Source: Roseovarius carneus | GTDB lineage: Bacteria; Pseudomonadota; Alphaproteobacteria; Rhodobacterales; Rhodobacteraceae | Assembly: GCF_020141465.1 (NCBI RefSeq) | Contig: NZ_JAHSPD010000001.1 | Location: 1,408,374-1,472,373, forward strand | Length of the DNA stretch: 64,000 nt | Direction of reading: 5' to 3' | Part shown: piece by piece, positions 49,596 through 59,413 of the stretch | Numbering within the stretch: position 1 is the stretch's first letter | How the letters are laid out: the number at the start of each line of letters is the position of its first letter | Made by a program: the position numbers and the translations under genes | Notes under the pieces: generated by a model | Told to the model about the DNA's origin: nothing | What the model saw: the letters and a program-made list of their open reading frames with translations, nothing else | The model's database searches: none

Positions 49596-49856
49596 GTGAT
49601 TGCTTCTGTCGACGCGCGGCGCTGGATGGTTCGCATCGTGATCAAGGGTGGAAATGCGGTCTATGCCGCCGCCACGGGCCAGCGTGTGCGCGTGTTGCCC
49701 ATGCCCCAAAGGCGGTTTTGCCTGAGCGTATTGGGCGCGGCCTTCATCTGCTTGGTGCCGGTTGGCCTTGGAGTGCATGGGTACAGCATTTCTCCCAACG
49801 GCCAGAGGTGCGCTATTCCGCAGCCACCGCAGGCAGGGCCTCTGGCACATAGTTAA
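49596..49856 (+). CDS. Doubtful 86-residue ORF between tRNA-Arg and metH
   Basis: The 300 bases between the tRNA and the metH stop (49813) hold no convincing gene. A GTG-initiated frame begins [20 protein letters not shown] and has one hydrophobic stretch ([20 protein letters not shown]). It has no ribosome-binding site and overlaps 44 bases of metH. No terminator-like hairpin or promoter was found in this stretch. Confidence 0.2.
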
Positions 49857-52527
49857 GGATCGGTGCGAGCCAGCGTTCGGCCTCGTCAAATGCTATGCCT
49901 TTGCGGATGGCGTAGTCCTGCACCTGATCCCGTTCCACCTTGGACACGCCAAAATAATAGGCGTCCGGGTGGCCGATATAAAGGCCCGATACGGAGGAGC
50001 CGGGCCACATCGCCATACTTTCCGTAAGCTCCACGCCCGTTGCGGCCTCCGCGTCCAGAAGGCGGAAGAGGGTCAGCTTTTCGGTATGATCGGGCTGCGC
50101 GGGGTATCCCGGCGCGGGGCGGATGCCGCGATATGGCTCGCCCGTCAGCTCGTCTGGGGCAAAACTCTCATCGGGTGCGTATGGCCACAGCTCGCGGCGG
50201 ACGCGCTGATGCAGCATCTCGGCCATGGCCTCGGCAAAGCGGTCGGCCAGTGCTTTGACGAGGATGGAGGAGTAGCTGTCATTGGCCGCCTCGAACCTCT
50301 TGGCGATCGCCACCTCTTCGGGGCCAGCGGTGACGACAAAGCCGCCCACATAATCGCGCACACCCTCGGGGGCCACGAAATCCGACAGGGCCAGATTGGG
50401 CCGTCCGGGGCGTTTGGCATGTTGCTGTCGCAGTGTGTGCAGGGTCGCAAGCGGTGTCTGGCGGTCCTCGCCTTTGAAGAGGCGAATATCATCGCCCTTA
50501 GCATTGGCGGGCCAGAACCCGGCAACCGCGCGTGGTCCGAACCATTTCTCGCCGATAATTTGCCCAAGCATCGTTTGTGCATCGGCAAAGAGGGCGCGGG
50601 CGGCCTCGCCTTGGCGTTCGTCCTCAAGGATTTTCGGGTAGATGCCTTTCAGCTCCCATGTGCGAAAAAACGGCGTCCAGTCGATGTATTGCGCAATCTC
50701 TGCGAGGTCCCAATCGTCGATCACCCGCGCACCCGTAAAGCTTGGCGCTGGTACGGTGTAATCTGCGAAGTTGATCTTCATCGCATTGGCGCGCGCGGTG
50801 GCCAGAGGCACGCGTTCCTTCGCCCGCTCTGAGCGTTCATGCCGCTCGGTCACGGTGACGTATTCCTCGCGGATGCCCTCAATATAGGTATCGCGGCTCT
50901 CGGGGTTCAAAAGCTTGCTGACCACGCCCACGGCACGGCTTGCATCCAGCACGTGGATCGCCTGGTTCTTGGTGTAGCGTGGCGCGATTTTTACCGCCGT
51001 ATGCACCTTCGATGTGGTCGCCCCGCCGATCAGGAGGGGGATATCATAGCCCTCGCGCTCCAGCTCGGAGGCCATATGCGCCATCTCATCGAGGCTGGGG
51101 GTAATGAGGCCAGACAGCCCGATGATATCGACATTTTCCGTCTTGGCCACTTCGAGAATTTTCTGCGGCGGCACCATCACGCCCAGATCAATGATCTCAT
51201 AATTGTTGCACGCCAGCACGACGCCCACGATATTCTTGCCGATATCATGCACATCGCCTTTCACGGTCGCCATCAGCACCTTGCCCGCCGTCTCGCGCCC
51301 GTCACCGCCGTTCAGGCGCTTTTCCTCTTCCATATAGGGTAGCAAAACCGCAACCGCCTGTTTCATCACCCGCGCGGATTTCACGACCTGCGGCAGGAAC
51401 ATTTTGCCCGCGCCAAAAAGGTCACCCACCACGTTCATCCCCGCCATCAGCGGGCCTTCGATCACATGGAGCGGACGTTTGGCCGCCAAGCGCGCCTCCT
51501 CGGTATCGGCGTCGATGAACTCGGTGATGCCATTGACCAGCGCGTGTTCGAGCCGCTTGTCGATGGACCATTCCCGCCACGCCAGATCGCGGACTTTCTC
51601 CTCGCGCGCGCCGCCGCGAAACCGCTCGGCAATCTCCAGCATCCGCTCGGTTGCATCCTCGCGACGGTTCAGGACCGCATCCTCGCACCGCTCGCGCAAT
51701 TCGGGGTCAATCTGGTCATAGACGGCCAATTGGCCCGCGTTGACGATGCCCATATCCATGCCCGCCTGAATGGCGTGATAGAGGAAAACGGCGTGCATGG
51801 CCTCGCGCACAGCCTCGTTCCCGCGAAACGAAAAGCTGAGATTCGACACCCCGCCCGAGACGTGGGCATGAGGTAGGTTGGCCCGAATCCAGCGGGTTGC
51901 CTCAATAAAATCGACGCCGTAATTGTTGTGTTCCTCAATCCCCGTGGCGATGGCGAAGATATTGGGATCAAAGATGATATCCTCGGGCGGGAAGCCCACT
52001 TCATCCACCAGAATCCGGTAGGCGCGCGCGCAAATCTCGGTCTTGCGCGCGCATGTGTCGGCTTGGCCCTGCTCGTCGAACGCCATGACGACGACTGCGG
52101 CCCCGTAAGCCAGACACAACTGCGCGTGGCGGCGAAATTCGTCCTCGCCCTCTTTCATGGAGATGGAGTTGACGACGCTCTTGCCCTGCACACATTGCAG
52201 GCCCGCCTCGATCACCTCCCATTTCGAGCTGTCGATCATGATGGGCACGCGGGCGATATCGGGCTCAGAAGCGATCAGATTGAGGAAGTCGATCATCGCC
52301 TGTTTGGAATCGATCAGGCCTTCATCCATGTTGATGTCGATGATCTGCGCGCCATTCTCCACCTGATCCAAGGCCACCGTCAGCGCGGCCGTGTAATCAC
52401 GGTTGGTGATCAGCTTGCGGAACTTGGCCGAGCCGGTGACATTGGTCCGCTCGCCTACATTCACGAAGGGGATGTCGGGAGTGAGGACAAAGGGCTCAAG
52501 CCCTGAAAGGCGCAAATGACGGCTCAT
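49813..52527 (-). CDS. metH: Methionine synthase, cobalamin- and folate-binding part
   Basis: This 904-residue protein covers the rest of MetH. The pterin-binding domain begins at [18 protein letters not shown]. The helical cap and B12 domain follow, with the DxHxxG cobalamin motif [15 protein letters not shown] (His427 binds cobalt). The C-terminal activation domain has [20 protein letters not shown], the AdoMet site. It lacks the homocysteine domain, which the overlapping upstream gene supplies. It begins at the ATGA overlap (52524-52527). Confidence 0.95.
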
Positions 52528-53558
52528 GCGGCGTGTTCCTTCAGGACTTGGCGGGGCGCGAAGGGGGCCACAGCCTCGGCGATGGCGCGGATATGGTCGG
52601 GCGTGGTGCCGCAGCAGCCGCCCACAACATTCAAAAGACCTTCTTGCGCAAATTCGGCCAATTGCCGTGCCGTATCCTCTGGGCCTTCGTCATAGAGGCC
52701 AAAGGCGTTGGGCAGCCCGGCATTGGGATAGGCGCAGGTCAGCGTGTTGGACACGCTTGCCAGCTCGGCCATATGCGGACGCATCGCGCTTGCCCCCAGC
52801 GCACAGTTGAGGCCTACGGTGAAGGGGCGCGCGTGTGCGACGGAGTGCCAGAACGCGGTGGGCGTCTGACCGGACAGGGTGCGCCCCGAGGCATCCGTGA
52901 TCGTGCCGGAGATCATGATCGGCAGGCGTCGCCCATGCTCTGCAAACGCCTCCACACAGGCAAAGATCGCGGCCTTGGCGTTCAGCGTGTCAAAGATCGT
53001 CTCGATCATGATCAGGTCCGCGCCGCCCGCGATCAACCCGCGTACCTGTTGGCCGTAGGCCACGCGCAGATCGTCAAAGGTGACGGCGCGGTAGCCCGGA
53101 TCACTTACATCGGGCGACAAAGACGCGGTGCGGTTCGTCGGTCCCACCGCCCCGGCGACAAAGCGTTCCTTGCCGTCGATTGCCGTGGCCCGGTCAAGCG
53201 CGCGGCGCACGATGCGCGCGCCGTGTTCGTTGAGGTCATGCACCGCCGCCTCCAGCCCGTAATCGGCTTGCGCGATGGTGGTGGCCGAAAATGTGTTGGT
53301 CTCCACGATATCCGCGCCCGCAATGGCATAGTTGAAATGGATCTCCTCCAGCGCCTCGGGCTGGGTCAGGATCAGCAGGTCGTTATTGCCTTTTTGAGGG
53401 TGATCCGTCGGGTGAGGGCAGGGTGTGCCGGAGCCTGTCCCGGCATAATCTTCTTCGCTGAGCTTGAGGTTCTGGATCTGCGTGCCCATCGCTCCGTCAA
53501 GGATCAAGATACGCTCTTGGGCTGTGGCGGTGAGTGTCTCAAGGGTGCGATTGGGCAT
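52524..53558 (-). CDS. metH: Methionine synthase, homocysteine-binding part
   Basis: This 344-residue zinc-dependent homocysteine methyltransferase domain begins [20 protein letters not shown]. The nucleophile-activating zinc is held by Cys252 ([10 protein letters not shown]) and Cys315/Cys316 ([10 protein letters not shown]), all present. [18 protein letters not shown] and [15 protein letters not shown] match MetH. AGGA lies 7 bases before ATG 53558, favouring it over longer options. It is coupled to the second MetH gene by ATGA, so the two chains reconstitute one enzyme. Confidence 0.94.
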
Positions 53559-53758
53559 GGGGTTTCCTGACATATCTGGAGTTGTCTGGTACCTAAAGGG
53601 TTGGGTTGCATTAGGCGAATTCATAATGTTCAGGATGATTATGAAAATCTCGCGTGTTTGGGCGCGGGTCTGCTGTGGCATCCCCAAGGGGTTGCGCCTG
53701 CGCGCGTCCTGCGGGAGGGTGCGTTGCTGCACTGAAGCCGCATTGAAGGAGACCGGGC

Positions 53759-54668: not shown

Positions 54669-55337
54669 ATGTTGATCGTTACACATAACACCCTGCGTAA
54701 CCCTGCTATCTTGAAGGTGCGCCAATTGCCGCGCAAATTCTTTGGTCGTGTGACGGTCTGGCCACGAGCGATGTCCTTTGGCCTCACGCTTCGGATATTG
54801 ATCGAGATGCAGTGGGTGCGCATTGCGCTGGCCTTGTCGCCTCTGGTCGCGATCGCGCTGATCTGGCGCGCGGCGGCCCTGCCGCTGAGCCAGGCACCGC
54901 TTTTGATGTTGATCATCATCTGGTGGGTGGAGACGCGGCTTTTGCGGGTCCCGGCCAAGCGGCGCGCGGCGCTGATTGATGCGGCAGAGGCAGAGCGGGG
55001 GCTGGACCTGTTGCGGGTAGAGGCGCGCGCGGCGCTGGGCCGGATTGCGGCGGGGCGCGAGATGCGCGCGGGCCAGTTGCATCTCGTGGTGGAGCAATCC
55101 GAGCTTTGGTCCTTCACGCCGCTGACCTATGTCTCGGTGCAGTCCGAGGCCGGGCCGGAGGTGCTGCGCCTGAGCCCGTCCGAGCAGGATATCCTGCGCG
55201 AGACCTTGTTTCAGGCGGGTCTCAGCGAGGCGGGTTTACAGCGGATCAACCAATCGCAGAATACGTTCCTGCGCGATATCGCCTTTGATGCGCGGGGCGT
55301 ATCGGCCCATGCGCGGCTGGCCGCGGCTCTAGGCTGA
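54669..55337 (+). CDS. Uncharacterised membrane protein
   Basis: This 222-residue protein (or 188 if it starts at the ATG at 54771) has two adjacent hydrophobic segments around residues 50-90. A basic stretch and a helical, Glu/Arg-rich cytoplasmic domain (residues 96-222) follow. Neither start has a good ribosome-binding site. No domain is recognised. It converges on and overlaps by 9 bases the VWA gene. Confidence 0.6.
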   Translation: MLIVTHNTLRNPAILKVRQLPRKFFGRVTVWPRAMSFGLTLRILIEMQWVRIALALSPLVAIALIWRAAALPLSQAPLLMLIIIWWVETRLLRVPAKRRAALIDAAEAERGLDLLRVEARAALGRIAAGREMRAGQLHLVVEQSELWSFTPLTYVSVQSEAGPEVLRLSPSEQDILRETLFQAGLSEAGLQRINQSQNTFLRDIAFDARGVSAHARLAAALG

Positions 55338-56582
55338 AAGATCTATAAGCCGGCCGTAAGGAGCCTGCATGTCACCGGCATCGGGTAGCGCCCAGATCAA
55401 GGGCATTGTGCGCGGAGGCGGGCCGGGATCGCCTTCCAGATCGGTGAGGATCACGAGGGCCGAGGCGTGCATCCGCTGGGCCGCATCAATCACGGGGCGA
55501 AAATCCGTCCCGCCGCCGCGCGGCATCTCGGGCAGTTTGGGCCGTGTGTCAGACGGATCAAGGCGGGCGTGGTGGCGGATCACCTCATCGAAGATCATCA
55601 GGTGCAGCTCAGCGCGCATCCGCCGGGCAATCCCTGTGACCTCGCCCCAAAAAAGGGCCAGCCGCGCATCATCAATGCTGCCTGAGGCGTCGAGCGCGAC
55701 GGCGATGCGCGGCACATCCGTCATCGGTTTCGTCCCCGGCTCGAACCCCGGCATCGGCGCGCCCCTCTGCGCGGCCTCGGCCACGCCTGCGATCCAGCGG
55801 CGGGCAGGGCGGTGTGCGCTGGGCTGTGGTGTTTGGGTCACGGCGGCTGTGAGCAGGCGGCGCAGAACACGTTCCCACGGGGTGCGCGGCTCAGGTATAT
55901 CGCCCAGAAGGTGGCCGATACGGCCAAGCCCGCGCCCAGATGCACGCCCTGCGGCCATTGCGCGGCTGACATGTTGGCGCCAGCGCGCGGCCTCCTCGGC
56001 GCGCGCGCCCTCTTCGGTCCCTTGCGGCCCCTCTTCGGGATCAATATCGCCCTCAAACCCCTGCTGCACAGCATAGGCACGGGCGGATTTAGCGGCCTCC
56101 TTGCCGCCGCCCTCTGCCTGTATCAATGCGAAATAGAGCCGGTCCACGTCCCACGCGCCAAGGGCCGTTTGCGGGGCCACATCCTCGCCGCGCAGGGCCT
56201 CTAAGAGGCCCGTGAGCGTCACGGCGGGGCGGGGCAGGGCATGATCGGCAAGCAGCAGTGCCTCGTTGATCAGGGCGTCGGCGGCAAGCTGATATATCTC
56301 GGGCCGGAACGCCCCACCGAGGCGTGCGCCCATCGCCGAGAGCCGGGCAGAGTGGCGCAGGGCGACATGCAACACGTGATGGGCGGTCAGCCCAATCTGT
56401 TCGTGCAGGGGTCGGGCTTCAAAATCCGCGCCATATGTGATCGTGCTGCCGCTGGTGCGTGTCGCTTCCCCGTCGCGGTGCACGCACCAAAGGGCAAGCG
56501 CCGCCAGCGCCGGATCGGCCTCTGCCAGCGCGCGCAGCGCGGGCCCGGCGCGGCGGCTGTGGCTCTGGGCTTGTGGGCTCAC
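55329..56582 (-). CDS. VWA-like metallopeptidase-type protein (DUF2201 family)
   Basis: This 417-residue protein has an N-terminal half resembling metallopeptidase-like DUF2201_N, with a candidate HVLHVALRHSARL region. The C-terminal VWA-like domain has the metal site VALDASGSID (Asp298, DxSxS). GGGTDFRPVI and VILTDLEGD complete it. The start is GTG at 56582, overlapping the AAA gene stop (GTGA). Such proteins act with MoxR-type ATPases in poorly known chaperone or metal-insertion systems. Confidence 0.82.
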   Translation of the reverse strand: MSPQAQSHSRRAGPALRALAEADPALAALALWCVHRDGEATRTSGSTITYGADFEARPLHEQIGLTAHHVLHVALRHSARLSAMGARLGGAFRPEIYQLAADALINEALLLADHALPRPAVTLTGLLEALRGEDVAPQTALGAWDVDRLYFALIQAEGGGKEAAKSARAYAVQQGFEGDIDPEEGPQGTEEGARAEEAARWRQHVSRAMAAGRASGRGLGRIGHLLGDIPEPRTPWERVLRRLLTAAVTQTPQPSAHRPARRWIAGVAEAAQRGAPMPGFEPGTKPMTDVPRIAVALDASGSIDDARLALFWGEVTGIARRMRAELHLMIFDEVIRHHARLDPSDTRPKLPEMPRGGGTDFRPVIDAAQRMHASALVILTDLEGDPGPPPRTMPLIWALPDAGDMQAPYGRLIDLSA

Positions 56583-57697
56583 GCGCGCCCGGCGGCGCTA
56601 CGTTCGGCCATATAGGCGGCATAGCTCTCGGAGGTGCGGAACGCCTCTTGCAAGCCGCTTGCCAGCGCCTTGTCGATCAAAAGCTCGAACCCGTAGGTGC
56701 AAAGCTCACCCAAGGGCAGGGTTCGGAACACCGGCTCGGGGCGCACCTCGGCAAGAGTGCGAATGTCGGCCATCGCGTCGATCACGCGCGGGATGGTCTG
56801 CGCATCCGTCACCGAGATCAGCGCATAGACCAGCGCCGTCAGCCCGTGCAGGCTGGCTGGATAAAGCCGCGCGCGATCACGGGGGGCCGCCTCCAGAATA
56901 TCGCCTGCCTGCACCGTGGCCGCGATATCTTCGGCGATTAGGATGAACTCGGCGGCCACCGCATCACCCAATACGCCCGCAATCAGAATGTCGCGCAGGG
57001 TCTTGTCGGGCACGGCGTGCAGGATGTCGCTGACCCGCGCCCAGCTGCGCGGGGTGCAGGCAATCATCTGACCCCGGCGCAGGGCTTCTTCAGCGTTGTC
57101 CAACAAATCGGGTCGGGTGCGGATGAACGCCGTCACCGACGGGTGCAGGCCGCGCGGCACGGCGTAGCCTTGGAGCCAGTCTGTCGGCTCCGCCACCACG
57201 CTGAGATGGATCAGCCGGTCCGACAGCGCCGTGCCCATCTCATAGGCAATCGCGCCATCCTCGACGGTGTTTCCAGCGGCGACGATGAACGTAGCCTCGG
57301 GTAGAACATGCCGCCCCACGCGGCGCTCTTGCAACAGGCCGTAGACCGTGGGCTGGAGCGAGGGGGCCGCTGCCGTCAGTTCATCAAGGAACAAGATTGC
57401 AGGGCGCGCGGGATCATCGGGCAGGTCCTCGGGGCGATACCAGACAGTGCGCTGGGCGACGTGATCATAGAAGGGCAGGCCGCGCAGGTCTTGTGGCTCA
57501 ATCGTTGTGAGGCGCAGATCGAAAAGCTGTGCGCCGGTTTCCCTGGCCAGTTGCGCGACGATATCGGTTTTGCCGATACCCGGACGCCCGTGCAGCATCC
57601 ATGAGGCGGTCATTTGCCCGGCTGTTTGCGCGGCGTATCCTGCGCGCAGAGCCTCCAGCGCGCGGCCTGCGGGGATGGGGGTGGTGTTGACGGACAT
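56579..57697 (-). CDS. MoxR-type AAA+ ATPase
   Basis: This 372-residue ATPase has Walker A GRPGIGKTD (residues 37-45) and Walker B AILFLDELTAAAPSLQPTVY. The segment VYGLLQERRVGRHVLPEATF and the sensor-1 stretch VAAGNTVEDGAIAYEM are MoxR-like. The ATG at 57697 follows AAGGAG. The VWA partner starts within its last codons. A chaperone or cofactor-insertion role is inferred from the family. Confidence 0.88.
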   Translation of the reverse strand: MSVNTTPIPAGRALEALRAGYAAQTAGQMTASWMLHGRPGIGKTDIVAQLARETGAQLFDLRLTTIEPQDLRGLPFYDHVAQRTVWYRPEDLPDDPARPAILFLDELTAAAPSLQPTVYGLLQERRVGRHVLPEATFIVAAGNTVEDGAIAYEMGTALSDRLIHLSVVAEPTDWLQGYAVPRGLHPSVTAFIRTRPDLLDNAEEALRRGQMIACTPRSWARVSDILHAVPDKTLRDILIAGVLGDAVAAEFILIAEDIAATVQAGDILEAAPRDRARLYPASLHGLTALVYALISVTDAQTIPRVIDAMADIRTLAEVRPEPVFRTLPLGELCTYGFELLIDKALASGLQEAFRTSESYAAYMAERSAAGRA

Positions 57698-57775
57698 GGC
57701 GCGCGCTCCTTTTAGCAGGGTTAATCTAGCGGAGTGGCGGGTGTGGGCAAGCACGGCCGCGAGGGGTGGGGATGT

Positions 57776-58756: not shown

Positions 58757-58879
58757 TTTTCGTCCCTTCCCAGATCAGCGGTAGCACGTCTTTGGGCCGC
58801 GCGGCAGGTTTCTTAAGCATCTTGGCGGGTGCGCGCGCTTGGGGTAGCGTGCGAGGGAACTTGCCAGGGAGAGTCTTCG

Positions 58880-59413
58880 ATGAAAATGAGCGACAGCCGC
58901 GAGATTGCAGCGGACAGGGCCACCGTCTGGGCCGCCCTTCTAAGCCCCGAGGTTTTGAAAGATTGCGTGCCCGGCGCGACCGAGGTGACCGGCACGCCCG
59001 AGGACGGGTTTGAGGCCACGGTGACGCAAAAGGTGGGCCCGGTGAAAGCCACGTTCAAAGGGCAGGTCGTCCTCAGCAATATGGTGGAGCATGAGAGCCT
59101 GACCCTGACCGGTGAGGGCAAGGGCGGGGCTGCGGGGTTTGCCAAGGGCGGGGCCGATGTGCGGCTTGAAACGATAGAGGGCGGCACGCGTCTGAGCTAT
59201 GATGTGGAGGCCAAGGTCGGTGGCAAGCTCGCGCAGCTTGGCAGCCGCATCGTGGACGGGTTTGCCAAGAAGATGGCCGATCAGTTTTTCTCGAACCTCG
59301 AGACGGCCATCGTGGGGCCCGAGCCCGAGCAGGCGGAAGAGGATGTCCCCCCCGTAGAGGGGGACGACGCGCAGAAAAAAGGCTGGCTCAAGCGGGCGTT
59401 TTCAAAGGACTAG
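58880..59413 (+). CDS. coxG: CoxG-family SRPBCC protein
   Basis: This 177-residue protein has the CO dehydrogenase subunit G fold: EIAADRATVWAALLSPEVLK, VPGATEVTGTPEDGFEATV and GGTRLSYDVEAKVGGKLAQL. CoxG helps anchor or mature CO dehydrogenase, but most homologues, like this one, are not next to cox genes. The C-terminus is acidic, then basic (KKGWLKRAFSKD). GGGAG precedes ATG 58880. Confidence 0.88.
   Translation: MKMSDSREIAADRATVWAALLSPEVLKDCVPGATEVTGTPEDGFEATVTQKVGPVKATFKGQVVLSNMVEHESLTLTGEGKGGAAGFAKGGADVRLETIEGGTRLSYDVEAKVGGKLAQLGSRIVDGFAKKMADQFFSNLETAIVGPEPEQAEEDVPPVEGDDAQKKGWLKRAFSKD

Follow-up and report, generated by a model that had tools for sequence, protein, structure and literature searches.

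The question raised by this locus is which process is served by a MoxR-type ATPase and its VWA partner, encoded by two adjacent genes of the window (the whole stretch of 64,000 nucleotides that was analyzed). The earlier note had described a GTGA-coupled chaperone-type pair that has no described function and stands alone. The first part of this description was supported, with both ORFs and their overlap found as it had reported, and the last part was not, as detailed below.

The MoxR ATPase and the VWA protein form a conserved gene pair

The moxR gene (372 aa) occupies positions 56579..57697 of the minus strand, with its ATG at 57697. It is followed on the same strand by vwa (417 aa; 55329..56582), which starts with GTG at 56582, and the two ORFs share a 4-base GTGA overlap. 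The matches of the ATPase to Pfam AAA_5 and AAA_3 exceed the Pfam cut-off. It contains Walker A (GRPGIGKT), Walker B (LFLDEL) and sensor (N143) motifs, and the Walker A/B, sensor and Arg positions were invariant in 19 aligned proteins. Its Pfam match of the MoxR type, its Arg finger, its sensor 1 and the two Walker motifs place the ATPase among the MoxR AAA+ proteins. Its partner matched PF13203 (E 1e-64) and PF09967 (E 3.5e-31) in Pfam and consists of a zincin-like DUF2201_N domain followed by a DUF2201 VWA domain; vwa is the only DUF2201 gene in this genome. The MIDAS, previously reported as intact, indeed has all five residues (D298, S300, S302, T359 and D381), and these were invariant in 18 aligned proteins. 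When the neighborhoods of 20 relatives were compared, with ~9 kb of sequence to either side, moxR was immediately upstream of vwa in 20/20. This is therefore a conserved gene pair and not a chance arrangement.

The VWA protein had also been called metallopeptidase-like, which holds for its fold and not for catalysis. The N-terminal zincin-like domain has HHVLH at residues 68-72 in place of HExxH, so that the catalytic Glu is replaced. Among 86 complete relatives, HHxxH was found in 85, HQxxH in one and HExxH in none (0/86). The HExxH motif is kept in the phage, Synechocystis plasmid and Thermus relatives. With the catalytic residue substituted throughout the phototroph clade, proteolysis by the VWA protein is unlikely; the protein is probably no protease, and its zincin-like domain probably a binding module instead. 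His68, His69, His72 and His77 (H68, H69, H72 and H77) are invariant in the aligned set, so this domain may still bind metal. The single HQxxH case belongs to genome G093, which has two c2 copies (see below), a divergent one adjoining the pair and a typical one at a distance.

A third gene, c2, accompanies the pair

The claim that the pair stands alone does not hold. Another conserved gene, c2 (222 aa; 54669..55337, plus strand), adjoins the pair, convergent with vwa and overlapping it by 9 bp. This component was recognized by its linkage to the pair and its identical genome distribution. Clustering of raw ORFs in search of a third gene was swamped by antisense shadow ORFs; c2 was found with a codon-usage gene caller, which detected it in 19/21 loci and fails on Cereibacter loci. 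Apart from c2, no gene that could be a client was common to the flanks of the relatives.

The N-terminal 49 residues of c2 include 8 basic and 1 acidic residue. Hydrophobic segments follow at about residues 47-66 and 70-92, and a C-terminal alpha/beta domain comes after them. The protein is thus predicted to form a membrane hairpin, its N- and C-terminal parts both facing the cytoplasm. No family match to c2 was obtained in Pfam, NCBIfam, PADLOC, PHROG or the PDB, and a fold search with its AlphaFold model (pLDDT 77) matched no solved structure. No c2 was found on plasmids or phages.

Each of moxR, vwa and c2 was present in the same 25 of 149 Rhodobacterales genomes and in none of the 124 others, which means that c2 occurs in 25/25 genomes with the pair. 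This match persists where c2 is unlinked, as in G067 (~13 kb away) and G045 (~1.2 Mb away), and the two c2 copies of G093, one of them unlinked, also fall within the trio-carrying set. The pairwise distances of the trio members correlate with r ~0.85, a value obtained with no unrelated gene as control. In loci with both genes, c2 was convergent after vwa in 53 and on the same strand before moxR in 35; once near-copies were removed, these counts were 48 and 29, with two order changes on the tree. In a class-wide set of 289 genomes, the window's genome was the only one with c2. The trio is a trait of Rhodobacterales.

Carriers of the trio are almost exclusively phototrophic

Many named c2 carriers belong to genera that include known phototrophs, and reaction-centre genes (PF00124) were tested for this reason. 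These genes were present in 64/149 genomes, including all 25 trio genomes, and the trio was found in 0/85 non-phototrophs. The light-harvesting family PF00556 likewise marks 64 genomes. The hypergeometric p for the trio lying within phototrophs was 2.5e-11 by genome and 5.7e-8 by genus, kinship being handled to genus level only. Counted by genus, 16/31 phototrophic genera had the trio compared to 0/42 others. In a second sample of 47 genomes, picked by c2 alone, 46 contained PF00124. One of these 46 matches is a fragment at a contig end, and the single c2 carrier without PF00124 is a metagenome bin. Seven of the 47 genomes were also in the first sample (identical coordinates), leaving ~40 new ones. 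The search for genes co-occurring with the pair, suggested in the earlier note, thus yielded c2 and the restriction of the trio to phototrophs. This restriction indicates the pathway, though not the client, and we propose that, in Rhodobacterales, moxR, vwa and c2 form a single module devoted to bacteriochlorophyll-based phototrophy.

The trio was absent from 39/64 phototrophs of the order, and c2 was absent from 18/18 phototrophs sampled elsewhere in the class, outside the family. With so many phototrophs lacking it, the trio is an accessory to phototrophy and not a requirement. Phototrophs of the same genus differ in the trio, e.g., the window's genome (G000) versus G073, G107, G122 and G129. 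The presence of carriers and non-carriers within one genus implies that the trio was gained or lost repeatedly. Three traits were considered as separating carriers from other phototrophs and rejected, namely pufC (16/25 carriers vs 18/39 non-carriers), LH2 (15/25 vs 12/39) and bchE (14/25 vs 14/39). Pigment-cluster gene content, compared in 22 genomes, revealed no gene that separates carriers, and the apparent differences were partly contig ends.

Gene neighborhood and promoter region

Most trio loci, including the window, do not adjoin the photosynthesis cluster. In the window's genome, a complete photosynthesis gene cluster lies at about 2.145-2.19 Mb of G000:C1 (L146, L147), ~0.7 Mb from the window, with pufX present and pufC absent. 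In three Roseibaca species (L084, L085/L033 and L093), the order bchZ-pufQ-pufBALMX-dxs-orf-moxR-vwa is found on one strand, and c2 is convergent; the end of this puf-moxR-vwa arrangement is also seen in L090. In L073, the pair is ~3 kb from bchO-bchD-bchI-crtA. The location of the pair near puf or bch genes is suggestive, as it amounts to two independent placements and is near chance for so many loci. The Roseibaca gene between dxs and moxR (L151:1564-2181, L084:13066-13884 and L093:13066-13740) encodes ~205-272 aa with a hydrophobic N-terminal part, and had no Pfam match where tested.

A probable moxR promoter region lies at 57698..57775 (minus strand), where CTTGCC is followed ~17-19 bases later by CTA, an arrangement seen in relatives. 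CTTGCC occurred upstream of moxR in 20/44 dereplicated regions compared to 3.6 expected, and this element looks like a housekeeping CTTG promoter. PpsR sites upstream of moxR were not found beyond chance.

Other genes of the window were also inspected. A CoxG-family (SRPBCC) gene is located at 58829-59413 (plus strand), with an EamA transporter between it and the pair. CoxG as a clue to CO dehydrogenase (CoxD/CoxE) was rejected, since relatives do not keep this gene next to the pair. At 49813-53732 (minus strand), methionine synthase MetH is split over two adjacent genes, with the homocysteine-methyltransferase part at 52524..53732 and the folate/cobalamin/activation part at 49813..52527.

Comparison with known AAA+ and VWA systems

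The AlphaFold model of the VWA protein (pLDDT 85) was closest among PDB folds to NorD bound to NorQ (E 8e-5), with a low TM (0.2-0.33) that covers the VWA part only. The membrane enzyme cNOR requires NorQ and NorD to acquire its non-haem iron, and an ATP-driven twist of NorD was proposed in 2026 from cryo-EM work (PMC9976466, PMC13036017). Like the pair described here, NorQ-NorD combines a MoxR AAA+ protein with a VWA partner, and it works from the cytoplasmic side on a redox complex in the membrane. In contrast to NorD, the VWA protein of the trio has the zincin-like DUF2201_N domain and a c2 partner, and is tied to phototrophy. No norCB was recognized among the neighbors of the pair in the window.

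Rubisco activase CbbQ-CbbO is another MoxR-VWA remodelling pair. It differs in the architecture of its VWA protein, and no rubisco genes were seen beside the phototroph pair. Mg-chelatase (BchI-BchD) and cobaltochelatase (CobS-CobT) likewise combine AAA+ and VWA proteins, and BchI/BchD serve phototrophy. The pair had no match to the chelatase families in Pfam or NCBIfam, and the window's genome has separate bchI and bchD genes in the pigment cluster. RavA-ViaA of E. coli is also a MoxR-VWA pair, and its targets are respiratory complexes of the membrane (PMC10585395, PMC3893208). Among the Pfam and NCBIfam matches of the present pair, neither the ViaA nor the RavA C-terminal (LARA) family was found.

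The same domain architecture and gene order were found in the MoxR/metallopeptidase-VWA genes of N4-like and jumbo phages (N4 gp24/gp25), for which a role in virion assembly has been proposed (PMC7824862). The pair matched PHROG 1297 and 1314 (E 8e-71 and 4e-45). The phage pairs differ in that they keep HExxH, have no c2 and share only ~25-33% identity with the phototroph pair. A distant gp24/gp25 pair with intact HExxH is present in Dinoroseobacter phage DS-1410Ws-06 (L159, 1405-3977), an N4-like phage that infects a marine member of Rhodobacterales. Two further candidates were rejected. The match to bpMoxR, the MoxR-vWA-beta-propeller conflict system, scored 26.5 bits against a cut-off of 27, with no propeller gene among the neighbors, and an anti-phage defence system was indicated by PADLOC only through a 38-residue IetA fragment.

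Possible function of the trio

On balance, we consider it likely that in some Rhodobacterales phototrophs (25/64) the trio works as a MoxR-VWA machine, tethered to the membrane, by which part of the photosynthetic apparatus is matured or maintained. From what is known of its family, MoxR would form an ATP-driven ring. The VWA protein would dock in this ring and bind the client through its MIDAS face, while c2, as a membrane hairpin with cytoplasmic domains, would anchor the complex at the photosynthetic membrane. ATP turnover could then open or remodel a phototroph-specific membrane client and thereby allow its assembly, cofactor loading or repair. The most plausible client, at a guess, would be the reaction centre-LH1 core or an enzyme that feeds it. 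The more specific idea of an AAA+ machine dedicated to the purple-bacterial reaction centre, made up of MoxR and a pseudo-peptidase VWA protein and tethered by c2 as a new protein family, which would insert the iron of the centre or reopen damaged centres for repair, is put forward tentatively and is rather doubtful. The open-licence literature searched contained no report of an AAA+ machine that remodels the reaction centre or the light-harvesting complexes of purple bacteria. The trio itself was undescribed there, including in Rhodobacter stress papers (PMC7074977, PMC3688512), and may be described elsewhere; the main text of an R. sphaeroides Tn-seq study names no MoxR.

The trio could instead be a stress or repair factor that removes or refolds membrane proteins photodamaged via BChl, light and oxygen. 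Such a role would explain why only some phototrophs keep the trio, which is restricted to phototrophs yet dispensable in many of them. Moreover, a MoxR of R. sphaeroides (RSP_1024), which may be another MoxR, is induced by singlet oxygen (PMC3688512; also PMC7074977). We nevertheless regard this role as unlikely, since no stress-type promoter was identified and the element upstream of moxR has the housekeeping appearance described above. By its gene order and numbering, RSP_1024 is presumably a different MoxR. Quite unlikely is a metal-insertion machine that loads the non-haem iron of the reaction centre between QA and QB, as NorQD loads FeB. This iron is found close to the cytoplasmic face, the VWA protein has NorD as its nearest solved fold, and the zincin-like domain keeps its four invariant histidines (H68, H69, H72 and H77). 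A membrane protein also receives its non-haem iron through NorQD (PMC9976466, PMC13036017). However, all such reaction centres have this iron, and the trio is present in only 25/64 phototrophs.

Very unlikely as the client, in place of the reaction centre, is an enzyme that takes part in making bacteriochlorophyll or carotenoids, e.g., the diiron cyclase AcsF. AAA+/VWA pairs act in Mg-chelation, the restriction to phototrophs fits such a client equally, and the pair of L073 is near bchO-bchD-bchI-crtA, but neither the pigment-cluster content of the 22 genomes nor bchE separates carriers from non-carriers. The function of the trio might also be unrelated to phototrophy and track it because both follow the same lineages. 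Related genomes are indeed non-independent samples, and the trio is confined to one order. This explanation is most improbable in view of the genus-level contrast (16/31 vs 0/42; p = 5.7e-8), the variable presence of the trio within genera, and the 46 phototrophs among the 47 genomes of the differently chosen set.

Few membrane systems have been studied as thoroughly as the photosynthetic apparatus of purple bacteria. A trio confined to phototrophs and carried by culturable strains makes a role in the loading, assembly or repair of its complexes directly testable by gene deletion. If the trio indeed serves the maturation or maintenance of part of this apparatus, some DUF2201 proteins would gain a function, and members of this family are also found in phages.
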